This document shows positions 24,892 through 44,951 of a DNA stretch of 47,928 bases, piece after piece (position 1 is the first letter of the stretch; each line of letters opens with the position of its first letter). The notes beneath the pieces were generated by a model. It did not search any database and was not told where the DNA came from. It saw only the letters and a program-made list of their open reading frames with translations. Both the position numbers and the translations under genes were made by a program. Source of the DNA: Melioribacteraceae bacterium. Lineage in GTDB: Bacteria; Bacteroidota; Ignavibacteria; Ignavibacteriales; Melioribacteraceae. The stretch is taken from positions 1-47,928 of the forward strand of contig JALSTI010000185.1 of assembly GCA_026983795.1 (NCBI GenBank), written 5' to 3'.

Positions 24892-26328
24892 TTATAAAAA
24901 TTTATTTGTAAATTCTTTCCTTAACGATGTGGTTAATCTTTTGTTTAATGCTTGCCGTGTAATTCCTAACATCCTTGCGGCAATGCTTTGATTATTGTTT
25001 GCTCTCGTTAATGCTTCTTTTATTAAAGCTGTTGTCGCTTCTTTAATTGTAGGCAATTTATACGAGAAAGATATTTGACCGGAATTAAATTCCTTGTTAG
25101 GTTTTTGCTGACTCTTTTTTTTGCCGTCGATAACTTCATAGAATGAATTGAGCGATAAGATACCGGATTGGTGAACGCTGACTGCATTATAAATCATTGA
25201 TTGTAATTCTCTAATATTGCCGGGAAAATGATATGTTGAGAGAAGTTGAACCAATTCTTTTGGATAGGTTGGAATCTTTTTATTAAATGCAATTGCCGCT
25301 TTTTCCAAAAAATATTCAATAAGCAAAGGCAAATCATCCAATCTTTCCCTAAGCGGAATAGGGTTAATATGATGAACATTTAATCTGTAATAAAGATCGT
25401 TTCTGAACTCTCCGTTTTCTTTGAGTTCGAATAAATTTTTATTTGTAGCGGCAATAACTAAAGCGTCGGAGTATTTTGGTTCATCGGAACCGAGCGGATA
25501 ATATTCTTTTTCCTGCAATAATCTTAATAATTTTATTTGTGAAGTACCGCTTAAATCTCCAATTTCGTCAAGAAATATTGTGCCGTGCTTTGCTCTTTCA
25601 ATCAATCCTATTCTGTCGCTGTTTGCATTGGTAAATGCACCCCTTTTGTGTCCGAATAAAGTATCCGAAAACATTTGATCGTCTAAGCCGGCTACATTAG
25701 TGGAGACGAATTTGCCTTTTTTACCGCTTAATTTATGTAACGATTTGGCAATAAGTTCTTTTCCAACTCCGGTTTCTCCGGTAATTAAAATTGGTTCGCT
25801 GGTTTTAGCTATTGCTTCCATATATTTGAAAATGGACCGCATTTGTTCGTTTTGAGTAATTATTTCGCTGAAAGCTTCGGGATGCGTTAAATTTGTTGAG
25901 ATGATTTTGTTTTTTAGTTTGGCATTTTCGCTTCTTAAATTTCTAATTTCCACAGCTCTCTTTACGCAGCTGATAAGTCTGCCTTCGCTTATTGGTTTGG
26001 TCAAATAATCGAATGCTCCTAACTTCATGCATTCAACCGCTGTATCAATTTCATGATTTCCGGTAATTACAATCACCGGTATTTGAGGATAATCGTGATT
26101 AATTATTTCTAATAATTCCTTACCGCTTACATGAGGCATCGAAAGGTCTAAAAGTAACAGTTGAATTTCCCGGTTTTTTATGATCGAAAGAACGTTCCGG
26201 CTGTCCGTTGTTGAAATTATATTATTTATCCCAATATCAATAAGAGTCATTTTGTACGATTCGATTAATAATTTTTCATCGTCAACTATGAATACCGGTT
26301 TATCGGGGAAATACGGATTATTTTTCAT
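24892..26328 (-). CDS. Sigma-54-dependent NtrC-family response regulator
   Basis: A 478-residue transcription activator with three parts: a receiver (about 10-125; acidic pocket Asp16-Asp17, phospho-acceptor Asp61, Lys111), a sigma-54-interacting AAA+ domain (about 155-390; Walker A GETGVGKE at 184-191, Walker B TIFLDEIGDL at 250-259) and a Fis-type helix-turn-helix at the C-terminus (NQSIAARMLGITRQALNKRL). The loop that touches sigma-54, normally GAFTGA, reads GAFTNA (230-235). No cognate kinase is adjacent. It is divergent from the polysaccharide genes across 364 bases, so it may control them. Confidence 0.95.
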   Translation of the reverse strand: MKNNPYFPDKPVFIVDDEKLLIESYKMTLIDIGINNIISTTDSRNVLSIIKNREIQLLLLDLSMPHVSGKELLEIINHDYPQIPVIVITGNHEIDTAVECMKLGAFDYLTKPISEGRLISCVKRAVEIRNLRSENAKLKNKIISTNLTHPEAFSEIITQNEQMRSIFKYMEAIAKTSEPILITGETGVGKELIAKSLHKLSGKKGKFVSTNVAGLDDQMFSDTLFGHKRGAFTNANSDRIGLIERAKHGTIFLDEIGDLSGTSQIKLLRLLQEKEYYPLGSDEPKYSDALVIAATNKNLFELKENGEFRNDLYYRLNVHHINPIPLRERLDDLPLLIEYFLEKAAIAFNKKIPTYPKELVQLLSTYHFPGNIRELQSMIYNAVSVHQSGILSLNSFYEVIDGKKKSQQKPNKEFNSGQISFSYKLPTIKEATTALIKEALTRANNNQSIAARMLGITRQALNKRLTTSLRKEFTNKFL

Positions 26329-40081: not shown

Positions 40082-40852
40082 TCATTTTCTTTTTCTGTCG
40101 AATTTAGAAGCTAAAAATTCGTAAATCCCCGCCGGTAATAACCCTATTAAACGCGAGCTAATTACCATTGGCAATGGAAATTGTATAATTCTTTTCCCTT
40201 TTTTAATTCCGTTAAATATTATAGATGCGGCTTTATCAACCGGCATCAACATTGGCATTGGAAAATTATTTTTAGCGGTCATTGCAGTTTTTACGAAGCC
40301 CGGTTTAACGGTAATTACTTTTACATTATATTTTTTTAACTCAACGCTTAAACCTTCCAAGTAAACTGAAACCGCAGCTTTACTTGCGCAATAAAAACCG
40401 CTGCCTGCAAAACCCCTGTTATCTGCAAGACTGGAAACGCCTACTATTGTTCCGCTTTTTCTTTCCAAAAACAATGGGAGTAGCTGTTCCAGAGGATAAA
40501 CAATTCCGAAGAAATTTGTCCCTATTATTGCTTCGGCTTTATGCGAATCGAAATTTTTAACCGACATTAAGTACGATTGTCCTGCATTAAATATTGCAAT
40601 ATCTATCGAATCGAAATTTGTTTTTATATCAGCAAAAGTATTGCTAACTTCGGAGCTGTTGCTAACATCGCATTTGTATAAATAAATTTCGCCGTTGTTG
40701 CCGCTTAGTTCGTCTTTTAGTTCCTCAAGTTTTTCCGTACGGCGGGCAATAAGAATTAATTTATTTCTTTCTTTGGCAAATAATTTTGCCAAAGCTTTGC
40801 CAATTCCGCTTGAAGCACCGGTGATTAATACCGTTTTATTATTAATTTTCAT
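40082..40852 (-). CDS. Short-chain dehydrogenase/reductase
   Basis: A 256-residue classical SDR. It contains the cofactor loop TGASSGIGKALA, the NAG motif in IAIFNAGQS, the catalytic serine in VGVSSLA and YCASK (Tyr and Lys), followed by VKPGFVKTAM. An Arg-Arg after the second strand (ARRTEKL) favours NADPH. The substrate is not deducible. The ATG at 40852 overlaps the miaA stop by 11 bases, suggesting coupling; the longer frame with a TTG at 40906 adds residues that no SDR has. The C-terminus carries a short hydrophobic stretch. Confidence 0.92.
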   Translation of the reverse strand: MKINNKTVLITGASSGIGKALAKLFAKERNKLILIARRTEKLEELKDELSGNNGEIYLYKCDVSNSSEVSNTFADIKTNFDSIDIAIFNAGQSYLMSVKNFDSHKAEAIIGTNFFGIVYPLEQLLPLFLERKSGTIVGVSSLADNRGFAGSGFYCASKAAVSVYLEGLSVELKKYNVKVITVKPGFVKTAMTAKNNFPMPMLMPVDKAASIIFNGIKKGKRIIQFPLPMVISSRLIGLLPAGIYEFLASKFDRKRK

Positions 40853-41756
40853 CGAAAAACTCTTTGGAAATAATTTTACCGGCCGATTCAAAATCCGGTC
40901 CTTCAATCCAATTTATTTTAATTCCGCTTCTTTCCATTTTTCTAAACCAAGTCATTTGTCGTTTTGCAAATTTATGAATAGCGCTGTTAAGTTTCTGGAA
41001 CATATCGTTATAGTTTAACTTTCCGGATAAGTACAAACTAACATATTTATATTCAAGACCAAAAAACATTAGTTTTTCCAAAGTAATTCCGTTTGCCATT
41101 AAATTTTCCACTTCTTCAACCATTCCGTTTTTCAATCGATTTTTTAATCTATTAGTAATATTCCGCTTTATTAATTCGCGTTCCAATTTAATACCTATTA
41201 TTAACGGATTAAGTTTAGGATATTCGTTTGATTGGGAATTTGTACTTTGTTCGGCTACTATTATTGCTTTTATTACCCGGTTTTTTATTTTGAGATCGGT
41301 AGTATTATGCAATTTCGGGTTAAGCGATTTAAGAATTTCCGTTAACTCTATAACCGGTAATTTATTTAGTTCATTTATTCTTTTTTTGTTGAAATCGATT
41401 TCTTTTAAATTGTAATTGCTAAGTACGGCGTTAAGATACAAACCCGTTCCTCCAACCAGAAAAGGGATTTTATTTCTTCCTGTTATTTGTTTGAAGGTTT
41501 CGTAAAATAATTTGCGGAACCGGAACACGTTAAATTCTTCCGAAGGTTCTATAATATCTATTAAATGGTATGGAATTAAACTTCCGTTTACAACATAATC
41601 CTGTAAATCTTTTCCCGTTCCAATATCCATTCCTTTATACACTTGGCGCGAATCTGCGGAAATTATTTCTCCGTTAAAACGATCGGCGAGCAATGCGGCT
41701 AATTTGGTTTTACCAACTGCCGTTGGACCTAAAACCGTTATGAGGTCGTATTTCAT
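40842..41756 (-). CDS. miaA: tRNA dimethylallyltransferase MiaA
   Basis: MiaA attaches a dimethylallyl group to adenosine 37 of tRNAs reading codons that begin with U. The 304-residue protein has the P-loop LGPTAVGKTKLA, the catalytic ISADSRQVYKGMDIGTGK, IPYHLIDIIEP and PFLVGGTGLYLNAVL, and the C-terminal QMTWFRK segment; all diagnostic. The size is standard. It starts 12 bases after the stop of the cNMP/GAF kinase-like gene and overlaps the SDR gene, so the three form an operon. The donor, dimethylallyl diphosphate, derives from the pathway that includes ispG elsewhere in the window. Confidence 0.97.
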   Translation of the reverse strand: MKYDLITVLGPTAVGKTKLAALLADRFNGEIISADSRQVYKGMDIGTGKDLQDYVVNGSLIPYHLIDIIEPSEEFNVFRFRKLFYETFKQITGRNKIPFLVGGTGLYLNAVLSNYNLKEIDFNKKRINELNKLPVIELTEILKSLNPKLHNTTDLKIKNRVIKAIIVAEQSTNSQSNEYPKLNPLIIGIKLERELIKRNITNRLKNRLKNGMVEEVENLMANGITLEKLMFFGLEYKYVSLYLSGKLNYNDMFQKLNSAIHKFAKRQMTWFRKMERSGIKINWIEGPDFESAGKIISKEFFDEN

Positions 41757-41768
41757 TAAATTATTAAA

Positions 41769-43895
41769 TTACCGGACAGGCAACTGAATATTAACTGTAG
41801 TTCCCTCGTTCGGTTTGCTTTCAATGGAAATTTTACCGTTATGGTCTTCAACAATTTTTTTGGTGATTGCCAAACCAAGTCCGGGACCTTTCGAGTTTCC
41901 AAAAGAAGTAAACGGTTCAAAAACCTTTTCTAAATTTTGGGCTTCAATTCCGGTTCCTTTATCTTCAAAAGTAATATTTACGTAATTATTTTCGCGTGAG
42001 GTACCAACGAATATGTTTCCGCCTTCGGGTAAAGCTTGACATGCATTTTTAATAATATTGTAAAAACATTGGTAAAATTCTTTTGAATCGATATACACAT
42101 TAACATCACCGGAAAGTTCCGTAATTATATCGCAATTATTTGTACGCGTAAAAGGTTCAACGCGATTAATAAATTCTTTAAGCGTATCGTTTAAGCTTTT
42201 ATTCTCTTTACGTAAAATCAAAGAGCCTTCAGTATAGTTTGAAGTTGTAAGAATAAGATCGGAAACTTGGTTTAATTGTTCTAAAAGCATATCAACAACT
42301 TGTTTAATTTCGCGCGGCAAGTTTTTTTGACTAAGATGTTCGGCGTACCGTTTACTTACCAGCACTGGCTTTTTAATATCCTGAATCAGGAAACTACCCA
42401 TTTTACCAAGCGAGGAATTTCTTTCCGTTTCCAAAAGTTTTTCTACCAACGAAGCATTTTCCAATGCAATAGAAGCATGCGAAGAAAGGGCATTCAAAAA
42501 CCACTCGTCCTTTTCGTTAAAAGCACCGTTTGCGCTATTTAAAAGTTGTAAAACTCCAATAATTTCTTCTCTTTTGTTTTTTATGGGATAGCATAAAATT
42601 GTTTCGGTTTTGTACCCGCTTTCTTTATCGAATGATTCATTAAATCTTTTATCGTTATAAGCGTCTTTAATATTAATAACTTCATCATTTTTTGCTGTCC
42701 ATCCGGCAAGGCCTTCACCGAATTTAAGTCTTATTTCTTTTAATTCGTCGCCCAACAAAACTTTCGACCATAATTCATGCTTCTGTTTATCGACTAAATA
42801 TAGCGTTCCGCGGTCTGCATTGGTTAAATCTACGGCAACGTCCACAATGCTTTTCAGAACGTCGTCAAGTTTTATATTCGAATTAACCAATTGCGCAGCT
42901 TTAATTATCATCTCCAGCTGTTCTTTAGTCATTATATCCTCATCGTTAATTATTTTATTTTTGTAAAGATATGCCGGATTCATATCCGGTTCGTTTGTTA
43001 TCAGGTCATCGGAAAGATCATTATGGGTTTCTTCGCCCAAATCGTTCATTAATTTTTCAACGGTATTTATTTCCTGATTATCGGAAATATTTTCGGAATT
43101 TTTACTCTCTCCCGTTTCAAATTCATTTTTGAAATTTTCGTTTTCCAAATTATTTTGATTGTTATTTGAAATATCCATTTCTCCCCCGTAAGGTAAATTG
43201 TTTTGTAGAACCGTATCATTTTCGTTTGAAAAGTTACTTGTTGGATCAACCGGAAATTCGTGATTTACCGGAAGAGTATCTTGAATTTTTTCGGAAATAT
43301 CATTGACCAGATTTTCGTTTTCGGCTAAGTGAAATTGTTCTGAAGCGGCAATATTGTTTTCAACAGGTTCGGTTATTTCGCTAATATCTATTTTTTCCGT
43401 TTCTATTGCTTGCTTGTTTTCAACATGGTTTACGCTTTCGTCAAAAATATTTTCCACAAGTGTTTCGTCTACAAAATTTTCCATATAACTATCATCGTCA
43501 ATTGGAACGTTAGTAGAAAGATTAACGGCTATTTCCTGGTTTTGGTCGATGAGTTTGTTTACCTCTGTTCTATTTAACCTGATAAGGTATGAATCGGTAA
43601 TTGCGACTGCGGTTGTATTCCTTTTAACGTCTTTAAGAAACTCTTCTTCGCCAAAAAATTCGTTTTCGCCGAAAACCGAAGATAAAGTTTTTCCGGTTTC
43701 CTGTTTTTTAAGCAAATTGATCTCTCCGTTAACAACCAAATAAATCGATTCGGCATCGTCACCACGGTTAAATAAAATTTCACCTTCGTTAATTGATATA
43801 AATTCGCCGTTTATACTGGCAAGATCAATTCCAGATATGTCAATATTTTCTAACAGCTTATTATTTTGTAAAGCTAAATAAGTTTGATTTTCCAT
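41769..43895 (-). CDS. cNMP-binding/GAF histidine-kinase-like protein lacking the phospho-histidine
   Basis: A 708-residue soluble protein: a cyclic nucleotide-binding-type domain (about 20-120), a long acidic Asn/Glu-rich linker (about 125-320), a GAF domain (about 345-490), a helical dimerisation segment and an HATPase domain (about 595-708) with IIKNACQALPEGG (N box), EDKGTGIEA (G1) and GPGLGLAITKKI (G2). The H box reads FLIQDIKKPV: Gln505 (codon CAG at 42383-42381) occupies the position of the phospho-accepting His seen in typical LIHDIKNP boxes. The ATPase boxes are intact, so ATP binding seems kept but classical phosphotransfer would be lost. It heads an operon with miaA and an SDR gene and is divergent from the ECF sigma gene. 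Confidence 0.9.
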   Translation of the reverse strand: MENQTYLALQNNKLLENIDISGIDLASINGEFISINEGEILFNRGDDAESIYLVVNGEINLLKKQETGKTLSSVFGENEFFGEEEFLKDVKRNTTAVAITDSYLIRLNRTEVNKLIDQNQEIAVNLSTNVPIDDDSYMENFVDETLVENIFDESVNHVENKQAIETEKIDISEITEPVENNIAASEQFHLAENENLVNDISEKIQDTLPVNHEFPVDPTSNFSNENDTVLQNNLPYGGEMDISNNNQNNLENENFKNEFETGESKNSENISDNQEINTVEKLMNDLGEETHNDLSDDLITNEPDMNPAYLYKNKIINDEDIMTKEQLEMIIKAAQLVNSNIKLDDVLKSIVDVAVDLTNADRGTLYLVDKQKHELWSKVLLGDELKEIRLKFGEGLAGWTAKNDEVINIKDAYNDKRFNESFDKESGYKTETILCYPIKNKREEIIGVLQLLNSANGAFNEKDEWFLNALSSHASIALENASLVEKLLETERNSSLGKMGSFLIQDIKKPVLVSKRYAEHLSQKNLPREIKQVVDMLLEQLNQVSDLILTTSNYTEGSLILRKENKSLNDTLKEFINRVEPFTRTNNCDIITELSGDVNVYIDSKEFYQCFYNIIKNACQALPEGGNIFVGTSRENNYVNITFEDKGTGIEAQNLEKVFEPFTSFGNSKGPGLGLAITKKIVEDHNGKISIESKPNEGTTVNIQLPVR

Positions 43896-44158
43896 GGGTC
43901 CAAATACAATGTTTAATTTATTTCATAAAGATAAAAATTTTCTTTTTTTGTTCAAAATGTTAAGATTTTAATTATAATTATTAATTTGTATAAATTTGTT
44001 CAAAAATGCAATATTTCATATATCTTAATAATCATTCTAACCCTCTGTTTTAACGGATTAGGATAATAAGCCGTGTTATAGTAAATTTCAACTCCGTTTT
44101 TTATGAGTTATTTAAGTAATCATATTGAATCTTTTTGTTAGAAAGTACATCAAATTTA

Positions 44159-44719
44159 ATGGATGAGAAACAATTAATAGAAAAAGCGAAACAAGGCGAC
44201 GCGGCGGCTCTTACCGAGTTGGTAAAAAGATATGAGCAAACTGTTTATAATTTTGCCTTTAAAATTTGCAGGGATAAGGAAAGAGCCGAGCATACAATGC
44301 AGGAAACATTTTTAAGCATGGTGAAATCGTTGCATCAATTTTCCGGTAATTCCAAATTATCGACGTGGTTGTATACGATTGTAAGTAATCATTGCTTAAT
44401 GTTAGCGCGTTCTAAAAAGAATAAAAATCTTACTTATTTGGAAGATGACGATGCATTAGTGAACAATGTTCATTTACATGAATGGAAAGTAACCCCTGAT
44501 AAAGTAACGGAAAACAATGAGTTGCGCGAGGTTTTGGATAAATCGATTGAGAAACTTCCTTATGATTACAGAATAATTTTTATTCTGAGGGATGTTGAAG
44601 GATTTTCGACGGAAGAAACGGCTAAGATGACAAATTTATCCGTTCCGGCCGTTAAATCCCGTTTACATAGAGCAAGGGCATTTTTGAGGAATGAATTAAA
44701 TGAAACCTTTGGCGAATAA
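44159..44719 (+). CDS. ECF-type RNA polymerase sigma factor
   Basis: A 186-residue extracytoplasmic-function sigma factor of RpoE type. Region 2 shows YNFAFKICRDKERAEHTMQE followed by STWLYTIVSNHC; region 4 shows LPYDYRIIFILRDVEGFSTE and the helix-turn-helix VPAVKSRLHRARAFLR. It should direct RNA polymerase to stress or envelope promoters. I placed the start at the ATG (44159) rather than the TTG 24 bases earlier. The upstream gap (263 bases, divergent from the cNMP/GAF kinase-like gene) has no gene; TAAATTTG at 43991-43998 could be a promoter element. The next gene overlaps by 20 bases and is a probable anti-sigma factor. Confidence 0.94.
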   Translation: MDEKQLIEKAKQGDAAALTELVKRYEQTVYNFAFKICRDKERAEHTMQETFLSMVKSLHQFSGNSKLSTWLYTIVSNHCLMLARSKKNKNLTYLEDDDALVNNVHLHEWKVTPDKVTENNELREVLDKSIEKLPYDYRIIFILRDVEGFSTEETAKMTNLSVPAVKSRLHRARAFLRNELNETFGE

Positions 44720-44951
44720 AAAAAACAATATAACTTGCAAAGAAGTTATGCATCACCTCTGTGAAAATTTAGGCGAGGATCTCAATTCGCCTAAATGCGC
44801 TGCAATTAAAAATCATCTTGATAATTGCGAAAACTGTCAGAGCTATTTTAAATCAATTGAAAGTACTATTCTCTTTTACAAAAAATACGATGTTAAACTT
44901 TCCGAAGATGGGCATAAAAGATTACTCGATTTTTTAGGATTGAAAGAATAA
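44700..44951 (+). CDS. Small zinc-finger (zf-HC2-like) anti-sigma candidate
   Basis: An 83-residue protein whose ATG lies inside the end of the ECF sigma gene. It contains Cys13 and the His39-x3-Cys43-x2-Cys46 cluster (HLDNCENC) that is the core of the ZAS/zf-HC2 zinc-binding anti-sigma domain. There is no membrane helix, so unlike most anti-sigma factors of envelope stress it would be soluble, similar in size to RsrA-type proteins that respond to redox. The location directly after the sigma gene is the normal one. A role as redox or zinc sensor is inferred. Confidence 0.82.
   Translation: MKPLANKKNNITCKEVMHHLCENLGEDLNSPKCAAIKNHLDNCENCQSYFKSIESTILFYKKYDVKLSEDGHKRLLDFLGLKE

Follow-up and report, generated by a model that had tools for sequence, protein, structure and literature searches.

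Pseudo-histidine kinases are already known as a kind, and to our knowledge few have been described. In DivL, from Caulobacter and other alphaproteobacteria, the acceptor histidine is replaced by tyrosine across orthologues while the other histidine kinase motifs and the response-regulator docking surface are conserved, and the protein is reported to have neither kinase nor phosphatase activity and to act as a sensor of a phosphorylated receiver (PMC4211667). RocA of group A Streptococcus is a sensor-kinase-like protein that acts via interaction with the kinase CovS (PMC7028121). In the openly licensed literature we found neither an order-wide family with a His-bearing counterpart and a link to a second MiaA, nor any paper on such proteins in Ignavibacteria.

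The DNA analyzed here, referred to as the window, is a stretch of 47,928 nucleotides from a Melioribacteraceae bacterium. An open reading frame on its minus strand (43895-41769) translates into 708 residues, and the protein, its parts and its immediate neighbors are as follows.

41769-43895, minus strand: pseudo-histidine kinase gene, 708 aa, CNB - acidic linker - GAF - DHp - CA (ORF, Pfam, relatives)
43539-43796, minus strand: cyclic-nucleotide-binding (CNB) domain, residues 34-119 (Pfam cNMP_binding, 9e-18)
Within the CNB domain, minus strand: phosphate-binding cassette FGEEEFLKDVKRNTTA, with Glu83 and Arg92 retained in the window protein (alignment columns)
42933-43538, minus strand: acidic low-complexity linker, residues 120-321 (composition, comparison with His-type relatives)
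42462-42869, minus strand: GAF domain of the PDE/CyaB2 type, residues 343-478, with Ser454 as the NKFDE Lys (Pfam 1.2e-16, profile match to 1ykd, alignment columns)
42216-42440, minus strand: DHp helical hairpin, residues 486-560 (helices of the AF2 model and alignment with HDIKNP-type relatives)
42381-42383, minus strand: Gln505 (CAG) at the phospho-acceptor position (sequence, alignments)
42369-42374, minus strand: Lys508-Lys509, with Lys at +4 in place of the HisKA Asn/Thr
42336-42338, minus strand: His520 at +15, invariant in the 78-member set, at a response-regulator docking position (alignment, HK853 T275, DivL Leu565)
41775-42128, minus strand: CA (HATPase_c) domain, residues 590-707, with N617, D645/G647/G649 and G672/G674 retained (Pfam, columns, AF2 model, fold matches)
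40842-41756, minus strand: second, diverged miaA (MiaA2; Pfam IPPT, 9e-57)
44135-44719, plus strand: divergent ECF sigma factor (Pfam)
44700-44951, plus strand: putative anti-sigma factor of the zf-HC2 type, overlapping the ECF gene (Pfam zf-HC2, 22.3 bits against a cut-off of 22.2)

The sensors of the window protein are the CNB and GAF domains, and no PAS domain is among its Pfam matches. The HATPase_c match covers residues 603-707 (1.6e-23), and HisKA gave no Pfam match even at E-values up to 1. The N (N617), G1 (DKGTGI) and G2 (GPGLGLAI) boxes are complete in the sequence, the Pfam match and the alignment columns alike, as the sequence-only reading had it. That reading had also pointed to an acidic linker of 190 residues, which the composition bears out: between residues 127 and 320 there are 48 Asp/Glu but only 8 Lys/Arg. 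Compared with the features of an active HisKA kinase, the acceptor His and the +4 Thr/Asn are absent, whereas the acidic residue at +1 and the three ATP boxes are present.

The window protein resembles DivL in having a HisKA-type DHp-CA core in which the acceptor is replaced family-wide and the other kinase motifs are kept. DivL, however, has PAS sensors and works in the DivK/CckA circuit, whereas the window protein belongs to another phylum and joins CNB, acidic linker and GAF; its family further differs in the variable residue at the acceptor site, the Lys at +4, the His at +15 and the miaA/ECF context. The contrast with RocA is sharper, as RocA is membrane-bound and retains a dispensable His with a degenerate CA domain, whereas the window protein has lost the His and kept the CA motifs (PMC7028121).

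Gln505 (CAG, 42383-42381) lies in the motif FLIQDIKKPV and, as had been proposed from the sequence, occupies exactly the phospho-acceptor position. When the DHp segment alone was aligned with solved kinases by phmmer, the matches were weak and placed Gln505 opposite the phospho-acceptor His of ThkA. Relatives were collected by searches of related genomes and of a species-level genome collection, nearly all of them labelled Ignavibacteria, Melioribacter, Stygiobacter or similar. From these we took a non-redundant set of 78 members, picked by the residue at +4 (Lys, Arg or Gln), from the order (Melioribacteraceae and neighbors within Ignavibacteria). In 77 of the 78, which share the motif and come from dozens of independent assemblies, the acceptor site is not His (Gln 52, Ser 12, Glu 6, Asn 3, Tyr 2, Arg 1, Thr 1), and the one remaining member has His. 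The acceptor His is thus absent family-wide while the neighboring residues are frozen: Lys508 and Pro510 are invariant, Lys509 is found in 76/78, and position +1 (Asp506 in the window protein) is Asp or Glu in all 78. The alignment therefore upholds the loss of His, whereas Gln is only its commonest replacement. Since the site drifts among Q, S, E, N, Y, R and T, with at least 17 state changes on the tree, Gln itself is not required, and a specific function of Gln is ruled out.

The closest matches outside the order belong to the same class; they have the CNB-GAF-kinase domain order without the acidic linker and read IIHDIKNP at the H box, in keeping with the LIHDIKNP-like motif anticipated earlier. 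These CNB-GAF-HisKA kinases (L128-L139, L154, L155) are 37-42% identical to the pseudokinase over GAF-DHp-CA and form the nearest His-bearing clade on the tree. Unlike the pseudokinase, they keep the acceptor His, Asn at +4 and Val/Ile at +15; unlike most pseudokinase members, they have the canonical Glu of the cNMP cassette and the Lys of the GAF domain. Their linker is a neutral 34 residues, and miaA and the ECF gene are not among their neighbors. A paralogous GAF-HK set with HEIRTP (L099-L102, L106, L107) was set aside.

The tree was built with the acceptor site masked; it is a quick tree with a two-row outgroup, and its most diverged rows sit on long branches. All non-His rows form one clade (SH-aLRT 100), and the minimum number of changes between His and non-His is two. 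The second is the sole His row (L016), placed with two Tyr rows, from which it differs by one base in the codon (CAC against TAC). On this tree the acceptor His was lost once, anciently, with an apparent single-base return to His. The returning copy (L016/L072, G021:C117), the only member with His, has the +4 Lys unchanged and sits on a 4.3-kb contig of an incomplete MAG. The His-type genes are not syntenic with the pseudokinase locus, and common descent therefore rests on the tree. From the position of class-mates with HDIKNP as the nearest His-bearing relatives, in a tree that does not contain DivL, we infer an origin independent of DivL; the likeness in working would be one of analogy, and we claim no membership of the DivL family.

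Several other positions separate the two groups. At +4, Asn in 14/14 His-type sequences corresponds to Lys in 76/78 of the set picked by that residue. In HisKA kinases a Thr or Asn at +4 is required for phosphatase activity (PMC3510030), and a kinase-dead protein acting purely as a phosphatase is disfavored by the +4 Lys. At +15, Val/Ile is replaced by His in 78/78; Val at +11 is mostly Arg in the non-His family, and Gly at +7 is Leu. The linker, 34 residues with a net charge of about +2 in 14/14 His-type sequences, has a median of 262 residues and a net charge of -47 in 71 non-His sequences; the acidic linker is a conserved trait of the family.

The ligand sites of the two sensors have changed as well. 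In the window protein the NKFDE motif of the GAF domain retains Asn, Phe, Asp and Glu, with Ser454 in place of Lys. The best solved sequence relatives of this domain are the GAF domains of PDE2/5/10 and CyaB2 (1ykd, 3lfv), from which it differs in having Ser for the NKFDE Lys in 69 of the 78 members; cyclic-nucleotide binding by the GAF domain is therefore uncertain. The Glu of the cNMP cassette is kept in 20/71 and the Arg in about 69/71; the cyclic-nucleotide determinants are partly eroded. Class III cyclases offer no clue through co-occurrence, since 31 of 33 genomes carry them in any case.

No other part of the protein is as conserved as DHp helix 1 (mean 0.82, compared with 0.60-0.70 elsewhere), whose conserved positions +8, +11, +12 and +15 match known receiver-docking positions. 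In HK853, whose acceptor is His260, +8, +11 and +15 correspond to A268, A271 and T275, helix-1 positions altered in the rewired HK853-RR468 interface of 4jas, as its structure title states. In DivL, Gly561 (+11) and Leu565 (+15) are modelled in contact with DivK, and DivK~P binding is lost in mutants of R553 (+3) and Y562 (+12) (PMC4211667). At these last two positions the window protein carries Lys508 and Tyr517. A second His in the helix of Gln505, if phosphorylated, had been named as a possible refutation; it is there, His520, and it is invariant (78/78). From position and conservation, His520 more likely serves docking than accepts phosphate, though it could instead be structural.

The acceptor is thus replaced throughout a conserved family that is under selection and has the histidine kinase fold, which makes the protein a pseudo-histidine kinase. 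Taken with the comparison to DivL, the sequences suggest that it probably arose from an ordinary CNB-GAF-HisKA sensor kinase and works by docking rather than by phosphotransfer, as DivL does. On the stem of one order, the acceptor His and the +4 phosphatase Asn were lost together; on the same stem an acidic disordered linker was gained and a new docking face probably fixed on DHp helix 1 (L512, R516, Y517, H520). The CNB and GAF domains would take in the signal and ATP bound by the CA domain would set the conformation of the DHp bundle, whose face may then dock a receiver domain or another kinase and so control the partner's phosphorylation state or availability. The acidic linker may, speculatively, shield the basic DHp face.

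In the CA domain, 77-78 of the 78 members retain N617, D645, G647, G649, G672 and G674 (one row is truncated). Eight close pairs gave dN/dS values of about 0-0.03 for DHp, 0.02-0.05 for GAF and, where computable, mostly 0.03-0.11 for CA, compared with 0.16-0.99 for the linker; for the structured core it is about 0.01-0.1, and there are no stops. These values indicate that the gene is under strong purifying selection and is not decaying. An AlphaFold2 model of residues 318-708 (single chain, 51-row alignment; pLDDT 85, pTM 0.55) shows the GAF domain, a long signalling helix, the DHp hairpin and the CA domain. Its structural matches are active kinases, HK853-RR468 complexes, ADP-bound ZraS and DivL (4q20), the last a generic fold match that ranks 41st.

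Some Ignavibacteriaceae copies in the same gene neighborhood (ECF sigma - pseudokinase - miaA) are without the N, G1 or G2 residues (L140-L142, L161), and one of them (L161, 4694-6364) has no GAF domain either. Another copy (L162, 4741-5853; G047) is without the GAF and H-box region and retains the ATP boxes. Since ATP boxes are lost in some copies at the same locus, an ATP switch cannot be universal, and the protein can work without them in at least some lineages. The ATP-dependent switch or kinase modulator first suggested for this gene therefore stands in part: the acceptor is gone, the ATP boxes are nearly invariant in the main family and the linker and miaA link are conserved, so that a switch or modulator that transfers no phosphate fits best, but ATP binding is not essential family-wide and the +4 residue has been lost as well.

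The intact ATP boxes also admit a catalytic role. Mutant kinases are known to complement each other as heterodimers (NtrB), and the protein could be the catalytic half of such a pair, its CA domain phosphorylating the His of a partner kinase in trans. The essentially invariant ATP-box residues of the main family agree with this, as does the acidic residue at +1, since an acid directly after the His is required for HisKA kinase activity (PMC3510030). We nevertheless regard it as unlikely: no partner kinase gene was found nearby, several same-locus copies without ATP boxes persist in genomes, and the +4 Lys with the altered helix 1 points to a changed rather than merely halved DHp. It also counts against the docking reading that neither a receiver nor a kinase gene adjoins the pseudokinase. 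Ten neighbors of the His-type kinases, scanned for a receiver gene that might point to the partner, included none, and a plasmid search gave generic kinase matches only. The genome itself encodes about 50 receiver domains. One lies in the window about 16 kb away (25963-26295, in a 493-aa ORF); its linkage in relatives was not seen as far as examined.

The most constant neighbor is miaA. It starts 12 nt past the pseudokinase stop codon in the window, directly follows the pseudokinase in 66 of the 68 loci with room for it, mostly within tens of bases, and is probably co-transcribed with it; the suggestion that the gene heads an operon with miaA has thus become one of conserved linkage. This miaA scores 195 bits, compared with 330 bits for the other miaA of the genome (G000:C283:3815-4669). 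Bacteroidota often have two miaA genes; here at least two were present in 20/20 pseudokinase genomes tested, against one in 7/7 His-type genomes tested. The ECF sigma gene lies upstream and divergent in 44 of 54 loci. In many relatives the pseudokinase is separated from the ECF gene by a gene resembling an HhH-GPD DNA glycosylase (for example L041:4106-4732); the window has no such gene at this place.

This linkage and the matching gene counts would suit a nucleotide-sensing controller of MiaA2 that uses the kinase fold as a scaffold only, a proposal we consider still less likely than a heterodimer. Two genomes (G025, G027) have lost the pseudokinase gene and kept its neighbors, the second miaA among them; in G038 the pseudokinase and the second miaA are far apart; and within a single order the synteny may stem from nothing more than shared transcription. 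Lower again we place a phosphate-free allosteric switch that would read ATP and cyclic nucleotide jointly and act on MiaA2, or on the linked ECF sigma factor, rather than on a response regulator.

Phosphotransfer through His520 as an alternative acceptor is quite improbable. The residue is invariant in the family, is Val/Ile in the His-bearing relatives and arose with the loss of the acceptor. However, 15 residues (about four turns of the helix) separate it from the usual site; it occupies a receiver-docking position, would be far from the point of phosphate delivery by CA in known structures, and is not shared by the diverged Ignavibacteriaceae copies. A sequencing error or decaying pseudogene, conceivable for a single codon in a MAG assembly of 312 contigs, is refuted by a loss conserved in dozens of independent assemblies, with no stops and a dN/dS of about 0.01-0.1 in the structured domains; neither chance nor read error could account for it.

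The pseudokinase and its relatives form a natural series within one class, from an intact kinase, through proteins that have lost the phosphotransfer and phosphatase residues and kept the ATP boxes, to copies that have lost the ATP boxes as well. All stages but the first share one conserved gene neighborhood, making the order of events in the repurposing of a kinase testable, and the finding draws attention to a conserved sensor encoded close to a second MiaA. Elsewhere in the genome of the window, a 2511-aa ORF (L168:1817-9349, G000:C85) combines an N-terminal cNMP-binding domain with extended coiled coils and, at its C-terminus, a STAS domain. Its CNB region shares 34% identity with that of the pseudokinase, and similar giant ORFs occur in G001 and G002.
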